This document shows, in pieces, positions 24,271-30,822 of a DNA stretch of 33,585 nt. The position numbers and the translations under genes are program-made. This DNA is from Lachnospiraceae bacterium (GTDB taxonomy: Bacteria > Bacillota > Clostridia > Lachnospirales > Lachnospiraceae): assembly GCA_022510685.1 (NCBI GenBank), contig JAFLTA010000031.1, positions 1 to 33,585 of the forward strand, in the 5' to 3' direction. Within the stretch, counting starts at the first letter, position 1; every line of letters begins with the position of its first letter. The notes under the pieces are model-generated. The model saw nothing but the letters and a program-made list of their open reading frames with translations. It had not been told where the DNA came from and made no database searches.

Positions 24271-25044
24271 TTACTGTAATTCCGCGATACGGCTGACTCC
24301 CACATAAATCTGGCTGATTTTATACCAGGTAGGATAGTCCACAATACCGGACTGGGGAAGGTTAAATACCTTTTGGAATACCTTGACTGCCTCTGCCGTC
24401 TTCGGACCAAAGATACCGTCAGCCGTAATTTTGGGAATGAGAGGATAGGCGCCGGCAATGGTATTTAGTTGGTTTTGCATCTGCCGCACTTTCTGTCCTC
24501 TGCTGCCGTTGGTCAGGTTGGAGCCGGGCCAGGAGGAAGGTACTCCGGAAATTTCTTCCGAGGTGTTGATATACATGGAATTGCCATAGAAATACCGGAT
24601 GATTTCAATGGCAGAGTAACCTCTGTCTCCCAGAGTTTTGGATTCCCATTGACGCATCCAGTTTGGACAGGATACTTGTTTACCGTCACAATATTGTGTT
24701 AAAATCGGCTGTGTCACGTTGGGACGTGCCAGAAAATTGGTGAAAATGGAATCCACTACTTGTGAGATGGATTCATAAATATTTCTGCCGGCAATCCATT
24801 TCTGATCATATGCCGTGGACGAGGTGATAGTGAAATCATACTTTTTGTTCCGGTACCACTCCGTATACACACGGTTCAACGTAAAGGATTGGATGGCGAG
24901 TACGTTGGCGATGATGGTTGCTTCCGGCCAGGTTGCATATATTTCACTGGAGGCAACGTTTTTGATATAATCTTTATATTTGACATAATGATTTTTGGCG
25001 GAGGAGTCCGAAGGTGGTCCGTCATGGACGATTACGTATTCGGG
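24271..25044 (-). pseudogene. sleC: sleC-like cortex-lytic enzyme, 3' half (interrupted gene)
   Basis: 256 codons from EYVIVHDGPP to ISQIYVGVSRIAELQ. This is the enzymatic core and C-terminal peptidoglycan-binding domain (TADGIFGPKTAEAVKVFQ) of SleC-type spore cortex-lytic enzymes, which degrade cortex peptidoglycan at germination. Family-typical stretches include YIKNVASSEIYATWPEA and FTLNRVYTEWYR. The open frame continues upstream on the minus strand, but those residues come from the inserted element and do not resemble the family. No start codon with a ribosome binding site opens this half. Its missing N-terminal part lies at 30255-30749. The gene symbol is by family resemblance; Lachnospiraceae often carry several paralogues. 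Confidence 0.88.
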
Positions 25045-25057
25045 GGCTGGTGTTTGA
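25042..25057 (+). other. Left attachment junction (core GGGG plus inverted repeat)
   Basis: Core GGGG 25042-25045, one extra G, then the left inverted repeat CTGGTGTTTGA at 25047-25057. Joined to the right end in a circle, the arms would lie symmetrically around a 6-nt spacer AGGGGG whose centre is GG, as expected of a serine-recombinase attP with a central dinucleotide. Confidence 0.7.
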
Positions 25058-25088
25058 TAGATTGATGGTAGTAGAACGGGGGAGTACA

Positions 25089-26480
25089 ATGAGTGATGAT
25101 AGTCGCAGCCGCGGCAAAAAAAGGCTTGAGCGGGAGAAGAAAGAGCGAAAGTCCAGGCGCAAAGAAAGAAGGATGCTGGAGAAACAACAAAATGCGGGCA
25201 GAAGGAAGCGCAAAGAGCTGACTGCATGGGAAAAATTAGATAATACGGCGAATTTATTTCCGGCGATTGCAACGCATAATATGACCAATGTATATCGAAT
25301 CAGTGTAACATTGACGGAACATATTGAACGAGATTTATTGCAGCAGGCACTGGATGAAATCCTCCCGAAATTTGATACATTCCGTGTACGCATGCGCAGG
25401 GGGATTTTTTGGAATTATTTTGAGACAAACCATAAAAGTCCGCCGTTGGTGGAAATTGAACAGACGTACCCTTGTGGCTTCATTGAGGCATATGAAAATA
25501 GCGGATATTTATTCCGGGTGAGTTATTATCGGAACCGGATAAATTTAGAGGTTTTTCATGTGCTGGCAGATGGGATGGGCGGTATGAATTTCTTGCGGGA
25601 ACTGACTTACCGATACTTGCAGCTGGCGCATCCGGATGAGGATTTCGGGGGACAGGAAGGTTTGTCGGATGCCACATCGCTGAATACAGAGGACAGTTAT
25701 CTCAAATATTACAAGCGAAGCCATGCCAAAGGATATAAAACGGCACGCGCCGTGGAAGTTAAGGGAGAACATTTGTCATCGGGAGAGATGGGAGTTATTC
25801 ATGGAAGCATGCCTTTGGCTCAAGTGAAAGAGGTGTGCCGTAAATGGGACATTAGCATTAATGAGTATTTGACGGCAGTTTTTATTTACAGCATATATAA
25901 GGAATATTTGAAAGGAATGCCGTCTATACGTCCGATAGCAGTAGCAGTTCCGGTAAATTTAAGACCCTATTTTGATTCTGTGACGACGAGAAATTTCTTT
26001 GTGATGGTGAGTGCTTTATTTCAGCCGGAGCGTACTTCCTATACCTTTGAGGAGGTGCGTGATATCGTGGTGAAAAGCTTGCGGGAACAGATTAATCAGG
26101 AGCATCTGGAAAAATTATTTTCTTACAATGTCTCCAATCAGAAAAATATTTTTTTGCGCTCTGTTCCCATGATGGTTAAAGTCATGGCGATGCGTTTTGT
26201 GTATCGTTCTACTGCGCGGGCGAATACCAGTACATTGACAAACATCGGTAATTTTCAGGTAGAGGAAGCCTATCGAAAGTATATCAATAAGTTTCACGGG
26301 ATGATTGCCATGTCTACGGCTCAAAATATAAAAGCATTGGTATGTTCCTATAACGGAGAACTGACATTAAATTTTACTTCCGTTTTAAGAGACGTATCCA
26401 TTCAGCGCAGGGTATTTCGTAAATTAGTAGAGGATGGGATATCCGTGACAATACAAAGTAATGGAGTGTATTATGGATAA
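25089..26480 (+). CDS. Condensation-domain acyltransferase (alcohol acetyltransferase-like)
   Basis: 463 residues. It belongs by pattern to the chloramphenicol-acetyltransferase/condensation superfamily: the active-site HxxxDG is HVLADG (H157, D161), and VPVNLRPYFDS is typical of the WS/DGAT and alcohol acetyltransferase branch. The first 50 residues are extremely basic (RGKKRLEREKKERKSRRKERR). I chose ATG 25089, with GGGGGAG 4 nt upstream; the longer frame from 25014 crosses the element boundary into sleC. Its stop overlaps the next gene. The acyl donor and acceptor are unknown. Only 43 nt separate it from the element end, so its promoter may lie outside the element or be created in the circular form. 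Confidence 0.8.
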   Translation: MSDDSRSRGKKRLEREKKERKSRRKERRMLEKQQNAGRRKRKELTAWEKLDNTANLFPAIATHNMTNVYRISVTLTEHIERDLLQQALDEILPKFDTFRVRMRRGIFWNYFETNHKSPPLVEIEQTYPCGFIEAYENSGYLFRVSYYRNRINLEVFHVLADGMGGMNFLRELTYRYLQLAHPDEDFGGQEGLSDATSLNTEDSYLKYYKRSHAKGYKTARAVEVKGEHLSSGEMGVIHGSMPLAQVKEVCRKWDISINEYLTAVFIYSIYKEYLKGMPSIRPIAVAVPVNLRPYFDSVTTRNFFVMVSALFQPERTSYTFEEVRDIVVKSLREQINQEHLEKLFSYNVSNQKNIFLRSVPMMVKVMAMRFVYRSTARANTSTLTNIGNFQVEEAYRKYINKFHGMIAMSTAQNIKALVCSYNGELTLNFTSVLRDVSIQRRVFRKLVEDGISVTIQSNGVYYG

Positions 26481-27147
26481 AAATTATTGTAAAACCTGTA
26501 ATATGATAATAGCTGACAAAACGGATGTCTGCCTGTTTTGCGGGAGGGTACTGACAAAGGGAGATGATGAGAATCCGGTGAATATGTATCCTGCTATTTA
26601 TCAGAGGACGCGAATGGCAAAACGGATTGTCTGGATTGCCACTTTTGTCCTGATATTCGTACAGGTATTATTATTTCTTTTCAATTATTATCTGGATAGG
26701 AAGGGAATCTGGTCCTATATTACAGGAGTCAGTATTTTGTATACTATCATATTGTTGCATTATATGGTTTTATGGAAAAGAAACTATATACGCAAATTGT
26801 TTATGGTTGCCTTTTATTCCATTTTATTGTTGTTGGCATTAGACGGAGTCACGGGATTTCCCGGTTGGTCTGTGCGTTATGGATTACCCTGCAGTATTTT
26901 TGCGTTGGACGGCATTTTGTTTATTGGAATGCTTGTAGACAGGGCAAACTGGACAAGTTATTTGTTGGTACAGGTATTTGCGCTGATTTTGGGAGTGGTA
27001 AATCTGGTGCTGTATCTTTGTGGTGTGGCAGGCAGTGCCCTTTTGGTATGGCTTGCGTTTTTGCTCACTATTTTATTGTTTGGAGGTTCCATGTTGGTGG
27101 GTGCCCGTAAGGCAGAGAGTGAGCTGCGAAGGCGATTTTATATATAG
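26473..27147 (+). CDS. Zinc-ribbon six-helix membrane protein (DUF6320-like)
   Basis: 224 residues. The N-terminal zinc ribbon is CKTCNMIIADKTDVCLFC, two CxxC pairs. About six hydrophobic helices follow (from IVWIATFVLIFVQVLLFLF to LALFLLTILLFG-like segments), then a basic tail. ATG 26473 is preceded by GGAG and overlaps the acyltransferase stop by 8 nt, so the two are coupled. The pattern resembles the family I know as DUF6320, found beside condensation-type acyltransferases and hydrolases; the family name is from memory. It probably supports a membrane-associated acyl-transfer step. Confidence 0.75.
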   Translation: MDKNYCKTCNMIIADKTDVCLFCGRVLTKGDDENPVNMYPAIYQRTRMAKRIVWIATFVLIFVQVLLFLFNYYLDRKGIWSYITGVSILYTIILLHYMVLWKRNYIRKLFMVAFYSILLLLALDGVTGFPGWSVRYGLPCSIFALDGILFIGMLVDRANWTSYLLVQVFALILGVVNLVLYLCGVAGSALLVWLAFLLTILLFGGSMLVGARKAESELRRRFYI

Positions 27148-27212
27148 CGAATGACGGGAAAGACACTTTTGGTCAGTGAGATTATATTTTTACAGTATAT
27201 GGAGGAAACAGT

Positions 27213-28118
27213 ATGCAATCCGAAAGCATTCAGGCAAAAATCGTTCGAGAATGTATCCGAATGGCAGCGGGGAATCGACTTATAGGACCGAAAATAAAGA
27301 CCGGGCAGCTACAGCGTCAGCTATTGGAGAAGGAGCCACGGTGGAAAGAGCCGGATGACATGACTTGGGAGAGAATGGATTTGTCTCATTTTGCAGTGGA
27401 GGTTTTAACGCCTGATACATTAGGAAAGTATGCACTTATGCAGCTTCATGGTGGAGGCTATGTGAACCCGCTGAGGAATGTGTATCGTAATTTTGCAAAA
27501 AAATATGCAGGCATGTGTGAAGGGATAAAGGTGTTTAGTGTAGATTACCGCGTCGCGCCGGAACATACCCATCCGGCAGCGTTGTTGGATGTAGTGGATG
27601 CCTATAAAATGATACTGGAGCAGGGATATTCCGGTGATGAGATTTTTGTGGCGGGAGATTCTGCAGGCGGGGGACTGGCAGTGGCGCTCTGTATGTGGTT
27701 ACGGGAACACAATTTACCGTTGCCGGCAAAGCTGGTTCTCATGTCCCCGTGGTTGGATATGACGGCATCAGGTGAGTCCTACGAAGAAAATTTTGATAAA
27801 GACCCCATGTTTGGTGGTACTAAGGAAAGTATGATATATCGTGGAGATTACCTGGGAGATTACAGCCCTGAAGAGCCCTATCTGTCACCGTTGTTCGGGG
27901 ATTTTACAGATATGCCGCCTATGCTGATTCAGGTGGGGGAGATAGAAATGCTGCGCAGTGATGGAGAGCGTGCTGCAGAAAAAGCAAAGGAAGTAGGAAG
28001 CGAGGCGAAACTGCAGGTTTATCAGGGGATGTTCCATGTGTTTCAGATGGGGACAGAGCAGATTCCGGAATCTGCCAGAGCATGGGAAGAAATACAATGT
28101 TTTTTAGAGAATGAATGA
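27213..28118 (+). CDS. Alpha/beta hydrolase, hormone-sensitive-lipase family
   Basis: 301 residues, family IV carboxylesterase type. Oxyanion motif LHGGGYV; nucleophile elbow GDSAGGG with S150; catalytic D250 (MLRSDG) and H275 (GMFHVF). No signal peptide, so cytosolic. GGAGGAAACAGT precedes ATG. It is the third gene of the acyltransferase/membrane-protein/hydrolase set, 65 nt after the second, suggesting paired ester making and cleaving. The natural ester is unknown. Confidence 0.9.
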   Translation: MQSESIQAKIVRECIRMAAGNRLIGPKIKTGQLQRQLLEKEPRWKEPDDMTWERMDLSHFAVEVLTPDTLGKYALMQLHGGGYVNPLRNVYRNFAKKYAGMCEGIKVFSVDYRVAPEHTHPAALLDVVDAYKMILEQGYSGDEIFVAGDSAGGGLAVALCMWLREHNLPLPAKLVLMSPWLDMTASGESYEENFDKDPMFGGTKESMIYRGDYLGDYSPEEPYLSPLFGDFTDMPPMLIQVGEIEMLRSDGERAAEKAKEVGSEAKLQVYQGMFHVFQMGTEQIPESARAWEEIQCFLENE

Positions 28119-28394
28119 GTATAAATAAGTGTTTTTTCAATGCATAGAGGGAATGCCTTTATACTTCCCGGAATATATATGTTAATGAATAATCTGCGTG
28201 GGGGTAGCCCATGGAATATGACAGCGGGGAGACACACATACGAAACTTCAAAAGAGGACAAGAAAGAAAATACTCTAATAGCGTTAAGGGGATGTCAATT
28301 GACGGAAGAAGGGAACATTGTGGAAGGGGAGAAATCGGAATTCTGCAAGGGACGGAAAATCGTGCAGCAGTATCGTACAGAAGGACCCGATCGC

Positions 28395-29410
28395 ATGGAG
28401 AGGCTGGCGTTATTGCAGTATCGAATAAAGAAGATGGCAGACAGCGGTGCGGGAGTTATCTGAGAGTTTCCCGTGAGGATGAATACCGGCAATCAGAGAG
28501 TAATAGTATTGCGAACCAGAGGTTGGTCATAGAGCAATATTTACAGCAGCATCCGGGATGGGAACTTGTCGGGGAATGGGTGGATGATGGTGTTAGCGGG
28601 AGTCGATTTGAACGCCCGGGTCTGCAGGGCTTATTGTATGCCGCGAAAACCGGAAAAATTGACTGTATTCTTGTGAAGGATTTATCCCGTTTTGGCAGGG
28701 AATACATTCAGACGGGACAGTATTTGCGTTATCTGTTTCCCAAGTGGGGTGTGAGATTTATATCTATCGGAGATGGATATGACACGGCAACGGCAGATTT
28801 TTGTGAGGATGTTCTCTTAATGCCTATTCTTAATCTTATGAATGATGCCTACTGTCATGATATTTCTAAAAAGGTAAGAAACGGACAAAATGCCAGAAGG
28901 CGACAAGGCGATTACGTAGGGGCGTTTGCTCCCTATGGCTATCAGAAAAGTAAGGAGGATTATCACAAGTTAGAAGAAGAACCGGAATCAGCATGGATTG
29001 TAAAAAAGATATTTGCATGGCGGGCAGGAGGACACTCGGCAGAAAAAATTGCAGGGTATTTAAATGTTCTGTCGATTCCTTCACCATATTTACACAAACA
29101 ATATACGACGAAACACTATGTATCCGGTTTTGTGGATAGAAAAGAAAGTGCGGAAAGCGAAATCAAGGAATGTGTGACCGAACTTGTGGACAGGAAGAGG
29201 GGTGTTCTTTGGACACCGGTATCAGTGAGACGGATACTGAAAAATGAATTGTACACGGGCATCCTGCAGCAGGGGAAAAGCAGAAAAGTCAGCTATAAAT
29301 TACAACGACGGCAATGGCTGCCAAAGGAGCAGTGGATTAGCGTACCGGGAGGTGCACCTCAAATTATATCTAAGGAATTATTTGAACAGTGTCAGGGGAG
29401 GTTGTTGTAA
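28395..29410 (+). CDS. Serine recombinase 1, N-terminus apparently frameshifted
   Basis: Resolvase catalytic domain starting YLRVSREDE (nucleophile Ser at 28469-28471), with VKDLSRFGREY for the catalytic arginines, then a recombinase domain (YGYQKS... to FEQCQGRLL). It lacks the zinc-ribbon and coiled-coil C-terminus of full large serine recombinases. The catalytic frame has no ATG, GTG or TTG nearby. The neighbouring frame from ATG 28395 (AAGGA 9 nt upstream) reads MERLALLQYRIKKMADSGAGV and hits TGA at 28461; one missing T before TAT (28457) would give AGVYLRVS, the expected family start. So a 1-nt deletion or sequence error is likely. The catalytic frame is open from 28211, but the extra residues look non-family. 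Stop abuts ATG of recombinase 2. Confidence 0.78.
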
Positions 29411-30160
29411 ATGCGGGCTGGAATTTATGCCAGAGTGTCAGTGCTTCACGGTACACAGAAGGACTTGACGGTGGAAAATCAAATTTTGTTGGCAGAGCAG
29501 TATCTGCGGGAATGGCAGGATGAACCGATAGAAATTAGTTATTATATCGATAGAGGGTACTCAGGGACAAATTTTCGGAGACCCTCTTTTTTGCGCATGG
29601 TCAGGGAGAGTGAGCAGGGAAGGTTGGATTTAATTGTGGCAAAGGATTTATCCCGTCTGGGAAGAAATTATCTGGAGCTGGGTTGGTACTTGGAAAAGGT
29701 GTTTCCTGATGCTGGAGTGCGTGTTGTGACACTGGGGGAAGGGTATGATAATGCCAATCCCGATAATGATAATCTGACTGCCGGTATACGGAATCTTATG
29801 AATGAGTGGTATGCAAGAGAAACGGGAAGAAAAGTCAGACATACCAAGGAATGGCTGCGCATGGAGGGTAATTATCTGGGCAGCAAGTCACCGTACGGTT
29901 ACAAAATAATTTATCGGGAAGGGAAGCGGATATTGATTCCCGATGCCGCTTATCCGGTACGAAAAGAAATATACAGGCTGCACAGAGAGGGAAAAACATC
30001 ATCGGAAATTGCACGGATTTTATCAGAAAGAAGGATTGCCACTCCGGAGCAATATAGATTATCCGGGTGTGTATGCTTTGAGTCGGAAGAGAAAATAAAA
30101 AAATGGAGCAGTGCTATGGTACGAGGACTTTGGAATCACGAATATGAGGAGGACTTTTAA
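29411..30160 (+). CDS. Serine recombinase 2, short form
   Basis: 249 residues. Resolvase domain intact: MRAGIYARVS with nucleophile S10, DRGYSGTNFRRP, and AKDLSRLGRNY. The recombinase (DNA-binding) domain is cut short after KKWSSAMVRGLW, and there is no zinc ribbon or coiled coil. AGGGGAGG within the end of recombinase 1 serves as its ribosome site; the two genes are directly abutting (TAAATG) and surely coexpressed. A tandem pair of unlike serine recombinases recalls ccrA/ccrB of SCCmec cassettes. It lies 95 nt from the right end of the element. Confidence 0.88.
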   Translation: MRAGIYARVSVLHGTQKDLTVENQILLAEQYLREWQDEPIEISYYIDRGYSGTNFRRPSFLRMVRESEQGRLDLIVAKDLSRLGRNYLELGWYLEKVFPDAGVRVVTLGEGYDNANPDNDNLTAGIRNLMNEWYARETGRKVRHTKEWLRMEGNYLGSKSPYGYKIIYREGKRILIPDAAYPVRKEIYRLHREGKTSSEIARILSERRIATPEQYRLSGCVCFESEEKIKKWSSAMVRGLWNHEYEEDF

Positions 30161-30206
30161 ATACGGCATATTTGAATGCTATGTTAATACGGTTATGCGA
30201 ATATCA

Positions 30207-30226
30207 GCATGCGGATATCCGCATGC
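30207..30226 (+). repeat. Perfect 20-bp palindrome near the right element end
   Basis: GCATGCGGAT followed by its exact reverse complement. It lies 17 nt inside the right inverted repeat and 46 nt after recombinase 2. It might be a recombinase or accessory-protein site at attR, or a regulator site. It has no counterpart at the left end. A terminator is unlikely because no T-tract follows. Confidence 0.7.
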
Positions 30227-30242
30227 AATGCGGACAGACGCT

Positions 30243-30258
30243 TCGAACACCAGAGGGG
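30243..30258 (+). other. Right attachment junction (inverted repeat plus core GGGG)
   Basis: Right inverted repeat TCGAACACCAG at 30243-30253, one A, then core GGGG at 30255-30258, which continues into the sleC 5' half. See the left junction for the pairing. Confidence 0.7.
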
Positions 30259-30749
30259 ATTACCACTCGGCTGAGGACAATTTCGCCCGTCTCATCCACG
30301 GTTTTAATTTCATCCTCCGCAATTTTAGGCGGATATTCTTCATATAGTGTGTGGGGAGAAATGACAAAGAGTTCTTCGCTATCCGGCTGGACGTTATCTA
30401 TGGGGAGGAGCTCCGTGTTCTGTAACGCAAGTTCTCCGGAAAGAATTTCAGCACCGTCAATTTCAACGGGTTCAAAGCCCGGAGCAGTAATGCGAATAGA
30501 GTATGTGGAATAAGGACGGTCAGCGCCCGGAGTGAGACTGTACTCCAAAGGGGGTGCCGGCAGGGAAATGGTATCGCTTTTTCCGCTGCTGTCTGTTTCG
30601 GTTTCCTCTATGATTTCATTCGGATAATTTACGTTCCGGATTTGTATTTTGGCTCCGGCAACAGGGCGGGAATCTCTCTGGGATGTAATGTTTGCCTGAA
30701 AGTAACCGGTATCAGGGGTATCCTGTGTTGCATGCAAATCCATTGACAT
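30255..30749 (-). pseudogene. sleC: sleC-like cortex-lytic enzyme, 5' half (interrupted gene)
   Basis: 165 codons from MSMDLHATQ to GEIVLSRVVIP. The N-terminal prodomain is family-typical: VAGAKIQIRN, TDSSGKSDTISLPAPP, YSTYSIRITAPGFEPVEI and HTLYEEYPPKIAED. GGAAAGGAG lies upstream of ATG. After Pro165 the frame enters the element, adds 16 foreign residues (ending MRISAC) and stops at 30204-30206. Joined to codon GAA at 25041 the chain becomes VVIP-EYVIVHDG, 421 residues, the normal SleC length. Predicted role: proform of a cortex-lytic enzyme, made in sporulating cells and activated at germination. In the integrated state only this truncated prodomain would be made. Confidence 0.87.
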
Positions 30750-30795: not shown

Positions 30796-30822
30796 TATTA
30801 TATGATTTGTGGAAAAAAGAGT
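30796..30822 (-). promoter_or_regulatory. Sigma-K-like promoter of sleC
   Basis: On the minus strand AC (30822-30821), 16 nt, then CATATAATA (30804-30796) matches the sigma-K consensus AC-N16/17-CATANNNTA. It lies 47 nt from the start codon, leaving room for the AAGGAG site. A TATAAT is embedded, but no sigma-A -35 is present at the right distance. Short motif, so supportive rather than proof. Confidence 0.5.

Follow-up and report, generated by a model that had tools for sequence, protein, structure and literature searches.

An old, non-phage intervening element in sleC of a Lachnospiraceae genus, probably cut out by its own serine recombinases

Only a few genes of spore-forming bacteria, among them sigK, spsM, spoVFB, spoVR, gerE and yabG, are known to undergo developmental DNA rearrangement. 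The present analysis concerns a 5-kb intervening element that splits sleC, a gene whose product would, to judge from its family, have a cortex-lytic role in germination, on contig JAFLTA010000031.1 (here G000:C28) of a Lachnospiraceae bacterium; the whole stretch of DNA analysed, 33,585 nucleotides, is referred to as the window. The skin element of Bacillus subtilis and Clostridioides difficile (PMC5025042) is also a serine recombinase element that splits a late mother-cell gene, in that case sigK, but it is prophage-like and the C. difficile recombinase CD1231 needs the factor CD1234. The gin element in gerE of Bacillus cereus ATCC10987 (PMC5595907) resembles the sleC element in being non-phage, in lying in a late mother-cell gene and in having several serine recombinases and a short core. 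It is 28.6 kb long with one recombinase (GirC) and the factor GirX in use (PMC5595907), whereas the sleC element is of 5 kb, carries two recombinases (R1 and R2) that end after the recombinase domain, holds three conserved cargo genes and recurs at one insertion point across a genus. The rebuilding of gerE by excision of gin has been shown (PMC5595907), while that of sleC is put forward here from comparative data. SP-beta in spsM (PMC4191935), the excision of which rejoins the gene, and yin in yabG (PMC10747680), the excision of which has been seen, likewise lie in sporulation genes but are prophages or prophage-like. Two adjacent serine recombinases, possibly acting together, are also found as CcrA and CcrB of SCCmec (PMC5595907), although R1 and R2 are much shorter, match the NCBIfam models far below the family cut-offs and are situated inside a split host gene. 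With an insertion in a sporulation gene between direct cores, a recombinase of its own and a frame that is open on loss of the element, as in skin and gin, the sleC element is of the same kind as these two and looks set to work like them. It is set apart from both by its target, the compactness of its recombinase pair, its conserved cargo and its age.

In the window a single sleC gene on the minus strand is broken into pieces of 165 and 256 codons, which flank a 5-kb segment that reads on the opposite strand:

24271..25044, minus strand: sleC C-part, a Pro codon, 256 codons (25041 to 24274) and a stop; SpoIID and PG_binding_1 domains
25042..25045, no strand: left core GGGG, followed by the element arm GCTGGTGTTTG (25046-25056)
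25046..30254, no strand: intervening element; excision removes 5,213 bp
28211..29410, plus strand: R1, a TnpX-like serine recombinase, its conserved part starting at about 28445
29411..30160, plus strand: R2, a shorter serine recombinase of 249 residues; Pfam Resolvase
30255..30258, no strand: right core GGGG, preceded by the element arm AACACCAGA (30246-30254)
30255..30749, minus strand: sleC N-part, 165 codons from the ATG at 30749 to the Pro codon at 30255

SpoIID (PF08486) and PG_binding_1 (PF01471) were matched in the C-part by Pfam, in the domain order of SleC. The N-part frame is open for 180 codons up to its terminal CCC, with 15 of these lying 5' of the ATG, and then runs on through 16 codons of element DNA before a stop is reached at 30204. 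The C-part begins with CCC in the same phase. GGGG is common to 25042-25045 and 30255-30258, 5,213 bp apart, and deletion between the two copies gives an open frame of 421 codons. Coordinates and frames were re-read and agree with an earlier account made from the letters alone (hereafter the sequence-only reading), which had described a split sleC-type gene of 165 and 256 codons with a shared GGGG at a Pro codon, a single phase and a 421-residue frame. That account had also raised the matter of further sleC copies, and a search of the window's genome returned the split copy as the only C-part match.

It is quite probable that this segment is an old, non-phage intervening element that is cut out of sleC by its serine recombinases, rebuilding the 421-codon gene. 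R1, with R2 in most genomes, would recombine the two direct GGGG cores; the element would leave as a circle and the 421-codon sleC would be restored. Excision would take place in the late mother cell, and the spore's own chromosome would keep the split form. The proteins predicted to carry out this excision are R1 and R2, and the host would be tied to the element, since loss of the recombinases without repair of the gene would cost germination.

The first line of evidence is the distribution of the split among 28 genomes of the window's Lachnospiraceae genus, 24 of which have a C-part homologue and 23 an N-part homologue; the four without a sleC match are all less than 90% complete. The gene is split in 15 of the 24 with a match, in five of them elsewhere by other elements and in ten species-level genomes (G000, G001, G002, G003, G004, G011, G012, G013, G020 and G023) at the Pro codon found in the window, termed site A. 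All ten carry the window's element or part of it, and wherever gene order is readable it runs cond, DUF6320, abh3 (the cargo genes), R1, R2. Recurrence of the same codon and of the same gene set, or part of it, in nine other genomes means that the split is not due to chance. Two more site-A loci, L138 and L139, came from a scan of 80 loci, 74 of which are unsplit. Relatives with an intact sleC, which the sequence-only reading had proposed to seek, do exist: the gene is unsplit in nine of the 24 genomes (G005, G008, G010, G015, G016, G017, G021, G022 and G024). R1/R2 matches adjoin sleC solely in site-A loci, when those of at least 33% identity are counted (the large recombinases at the other split points C and D match at 22-25%). 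The evolutionary pattern is clear: recombinases persist next to split copies of sleC and are not seen next to intact ones, in one case with a scar.

Further evidence came from G012, in which contig C6 carries an N-part that runs into a C-part exactly at the core. Over its last 58 bp this contig shows no difference from the C-part of contig C78, which bears the element in the same genome, and an assembly fork between both forms would have this appearance. The length of the overlap is presumably k-1 for an assembly with k = 59. Two matches to the joined-form pattern in G023 lie in other pieces and were not counted.

The ends of the element form a dyad centred on GG, with 10 of 16 arm positions matched in the window. 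This dyad is present in all nine site-A loci in which both ends were read, with 8-13 of 16 positions matched (random mean 4.0; P of at least 10 = 0.0016), L138 having ten. If strands are exchanged at the central GG of the attP dyad, the products predicted for sleC and for csp, a second split gene treated below, are both in frame and have a shared core. The predicted joined sleC site is TATTCGGGGAT(T/A/G)AC in eight of the nine loci and TACTCGGGGATAAC in L138. ATTCGGGGATT is contained in the predicted joined site of six of the nine and is shown by the joined contig of G012 and by the scarred G005. The pattern also read nine further genes that are unsplit or split at another point (it missed G021, G006 and G025); these have synonymous changes in the core, and TTCGGGGAT occurs in none of them.

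Both R1 and R2 match Pfam Resolvase, and the Recombinase domain is matched in R1 and, slightly below the cut-off, in R2. The catalytic Y.R.S and K-D-L-S-R-x-G-R residues of R1 are invariant in all ten sequences aligned, as are Ser10 and the KD.SR.GR residues of R2 in nine of nine (the broken R2 of G002 was not included). The two proteins do not fit the architecture of large serine recombinases, which combine a catalytic domain, a recombinase domain, a zinc ribbon and a coiled coil: neither has a Pfam zinc-ribbon match (321 and 249 residues) and, judged from length alone, both are too short for the coiled-coil part. For comparison, two of the three recombinases scanned from sites C and E pass the zinc-ribbon cut-off and the third lies below it. 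The coiled coil is regarded as the part on which directionality factors act (PMC5025042). As R1 and R2 end before that part, the direction of recombination must be set otherwise, and one may speculate that this is done by R2 or by a small open reading frame (ORF) that precedes the conserved part of R1:

28140..28463, plus strand: small ORF of 107 residues, overlapping the start of R1; no Pfam match

This ORF is a speculative candidate for a directionality factor. No phage structural or replication genes were found by Pfam and NCBIfam among the element's five main ORFs, so that it is not prophage-like. R2 has relatives in viral contigs at 31-40% identity (best 80 of 443) and on plasmids at 33-35% identity (best 10 of 115 records).

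The timing of the proposed excision is suggested by a motif upstream of the N-part:

30796..30822, minus strand: sigma-K-like box AC-N16-CATATAATA

The box, which we take to resemble the sigma-K consensus, was initially noticed in the window and afterwards put to the test in the form AC-N15-17-CATANNNT(A/G). It lies upstream of 21 of 25 N-parts, or 20 of 24 without the window (300 shuffles: mean 0.64, maximum 3); these regions include two pieces of G023 (C127 and C93) described below. Of 64 sleC genes that are unsplit in other genera, 26 have it, whereas shuffles gave a mean of 1.2 and at most 4. The sleC gene of C. difficile depends on sigma-K (PMC3738446). Together the box and this dependence suggest that excision is probably timed to the late mother cell during sporulation. 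Since the mother cell is doomed, a gene that is used solely in it can be restored in that cell with the spore chromosome left untouched.

The same data bear on an explanation without a developmental component, in which the element leaves and re-enters at a low rate in growing cells, leaving some of the population with a working sleC, as a reversible form of bet-hedging on germination. This would agree with the presence of both forms in the G012 assembly and of unsplit genes in several clades, and the yabG element of C. botulinum is excised in part of a culture (PMC10747680). However, the sigma-K-like box makes sleC likely to be a late mother-cell gene, so a germline switch would matter at sporulation only, and the unsplit relatives, with no R1/R2 beside sleC, look repaired rather than switched. 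We therefore regard such switching as unlikely, though it is the best placed of the alternatives.

The alternative offered by the sequence-only reading was that the insertion simply inactivates sleC in lineages that have ceased to need it. Ratios of non-synonymous to synonymous substitution (dN/dS) were calculated pairwise by NG86, with saturated-dS pairs such as G000-G012 giving no value for most genes. Between site-A genomes the N-part gave 0.07-0.14 and the C-part 0.02-0.05; the corresponding ranges for the other pairs, whether unsplit, mixed or split at another point, were 0.05-0.13 and 0.02-0.03. Where both genes of a pair were unsplit, the values were 0.05 and 0.13 for the N-part and 0.02 for the C-part (one pair, the other being saturated). 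Values for R1 were 0.07-0.11 (G002 was left out, its match being another recombinase) and for R2 0.11-0.30. In an alignment of 13 C-parts, split and unsplit, the other twelve are 78-86% identical to that of the window. Both sleC parts are under strong purifying selection in several species pairs, across large synonymous distances and unlike a dead gene, and purifying selection also acts on R1 and R2. Some decay does exist, with two stops in the unsplit sleC of G008 and one near the end of the split gene in G011, and sleC was not matched in the four incomplete genomes of the 28. Inactivation was nevertheless rejected on the dN/dS values: selection acts on both parts as in other pairs, the recombinase active-site residues are invariant, the sigma-K-like box is kept and the window's genome has no second sleC C-part match. 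This explanation is very improbable, being contradicted by purifying selection, the distribution of R1/R2 and the joined assembly, and the candidate skin-like, removable element of the sequence-only reading gains support from the same three sources. That the halves act as two separate proteins, both frames being open in the window, is scarcely credible and was rejected, because the tails that follow the N-part vary from 3 to 45 codons (eight loci), a stop is met upstream of the C-part before any ATG, GTG or TTG in six of ten loci, and the first ATG within the C-part lies at least 122 codons in at nine of ten.

Several observations weigh against excision by R1 and R2 as proposed. The joined-form pattern was found in only one of the ten site-A genomes (G012), as against seven of the nine unsplit ones; having missed two of these nine, the pattern is not fully sensitive. 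Strain mixture in the metagenome-assembled genome of G012 could be the source of its joined form, and a circle-junction pattern allowing at most one mismatch was found in none of the 28 genomes. The element is not intact everywhere: G001 has R1 but no R2 at sleC, the R2 match of G002 (read in part) begins at residue 37 and contains a stop, and stops lie close to the end of the C-part in the split gene of G011 and close to the end of R2 in G013. No sporulation promoter is conserved before R1 in nine elements, CATANNNT being present in three and the full box in none. No directionality factor was identified; small ORFs precede R1 in several elements and the five scanned all lack a Pfam match. AlphaFold models of R1 and R2 are poor (predicted local distance difference test scores, pLDDT, of 60.5 and 55.9). 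Finally, the R1 and R2 trees each have one starred branch of seven and place G023 differently from the sleC tree, and given these weak trees it is possible that the recombinases have been exchanged between hosts. Both trees do recover G000 with G012 and G004 with G013.

The rest of the element is made up of a trio of cargo genes:

25089..26480, plus strand: cargo gene 1, a WS/DGAT-like acyltransferase ('cond'); TIGR02946 at E 2e-5, far under the cut-off, and no Pfam match
26461..27147, plus strand: cargo gene 2, a DUF6320 protein (PF19845, Pfam)
27213..28118, plus strand: cargo gene 3, an alpha/beta hydrolase, Abhydrolase_3 (PF07859, Pfam)

The gene cond lies inside the element in nine of the ten site-A genomes, none being seen in the partly read pieces of G002, and for each of the nine site-A genomes in which the trio could be read it is inside sleC. 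Seven genomes without a split at site A (G005, G006, G010, G014, G015, G024 and G025) have the trio directly downstream of sleC, outside the gene, and in four of these an M18 peptidase gene follows beyond it on the fetched stretch. In G016 and G017 sleC is followed by the M18 gene. Of the 24 genomes of the genus that bear sleC, 16 thus keep the trio (window 25089-28118) either within that gene or next to it. Its tree equals the sleC tree in the main groups and has the inside and beside arrangements mixed (three changes), which argues that the insertion is old and that the trio was inherited with the host. L139 was not included in the trees, nor was G002 in those of the cargo and R1 or G001 in that of R2. 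In G005, which has an unsplit sleC, a 50-bp scar consisting of an element end and the C-part start lies upstream of cond (L067 11224-11273; 88% identity, E 7e-13), and this implies that its ancestors were split and that sleC was rebuilt later. No such scar was found in the other six genomes with the trio beside sleC. A role for the trio as a mere passenger of the element was rejected, as it adjoins sleC outside the gene in seven genomes and has a tree much like that of sleC. A first reading of the trio as a captured neighbour was also given up, the scar showing that in G005 the split form came earlier.

Other elements have entered sleC at further points. Site B is split in G006, G018, G025 and G014. 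The site-B elements of G006 and G018 have an integrase of 371-372 residues that resembles the one in G025, together with other genes that are phage-like by eye; the stretch fetched for G014 showed no element gene. A mini-element of 2.4 kb in G025 (L079 787-3208) carries a tyrosine recombinase, the only site-B integrase scanned, and a Tn916-Xis-like excisionase, and so brings another class of recombinase to sleC. Three genomes, G026, G013 and G023, have a split at site C, with a large serine recombinase of 547 residues near it in G023; G014 and G026 each gave one sleC part. Two contigs of G023, C127 and C93 (L114 and L115), hold diverged sleC N-parts (47-49% identity) with a fourth split point, beside recombinases of 564-567 residues; the bin may be mixed and these contigs may belong to other species.

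A pair related to R1 and R2 (35-38% identity, best match) splits the gene for a CspB-like germination protease in two genomes, G009 and G001, the break falling at the IDSG-IDY codons. CspB-like proteases are of the kind that activates SleC in other clostridia. The csp product has CspB_prodomain and Peptidase_S8 domains, and its nearest solved chains are germination proteases including CspB. The predicted joined csp sites of both genomes contain ATTCGGGGATT, like the window's sleC site, and are in frame. At the two csp loci (L116 2239-5724 on G009:C130 and L256 1601-5441 on G001:C5) the element, of about 1.8-2.2 kb, holds recombinases only, and a third serine recombinase lies just upstream in both genomes. 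The csp C-part starts at the same codon in six more genomes, G002 (C154), G003, G006, G013, G019 (where the alignment begins four codons earlier) and G020, on contigs that carry recombinases 27-41% identical to R1/R2; the corresponding N-parts lay off the fetched stretches. G002 also has an unsplit csp copy, and the window's own csp is unsplit. No report of a split sleC or csp gene was found among open-licence PMC papers, preprints being outside that scope. Developmental rearrangement would hereby extend to sleC and a csp-type gene, that is to spore-opening enzymes, in gut bacteria. The cultured Butyribacter intestini TF01-11, apparently a member of the window's genus, appears to be split in both genes, which makes the idea directly testable.

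The sigK gene is split on one contig in six of the 28 genomes (G004, G005, G006, G013, G023 and G025; L217-L222) and unsplit in that of the window. In the three read (L218, L219 and L220) a recombinase of 541-576 residues stands with an adjoining small protein, which could be a directionality factor. Tentatively, and with the odds somewhat against it, R1/R2 might be seen as specialists in rejoining genes of the germination pathway, a single type of recombinase acting on a single target (ATTCGGGGATT) in sleC and in the CspB-like protease gene, with insertions at these and other sites having accumulated until sigK, csp and sleC are all apparently split in some species (G013, G006). If this is true, such species need several separate excisions per mother cell for a germinable spore and are tied to recombinases by their split genes.

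In a scan of 200 genomes of the family sleC was found in 130. Outside the genus at least 19 look split, at least five of them near site C and at least 14 at one further point, some of these 14 with one piece among the matches listed. Six of the 19 were read at the DNA level (L223-L229) and have a serine recombinase of 511-587 residues beside the break or at the element end, two of these being confirmed by Pfam. In one single-contig genome, G266, the two sleC parts lie 40 kb apart, on either side of an insertion that is prophage-like in look.

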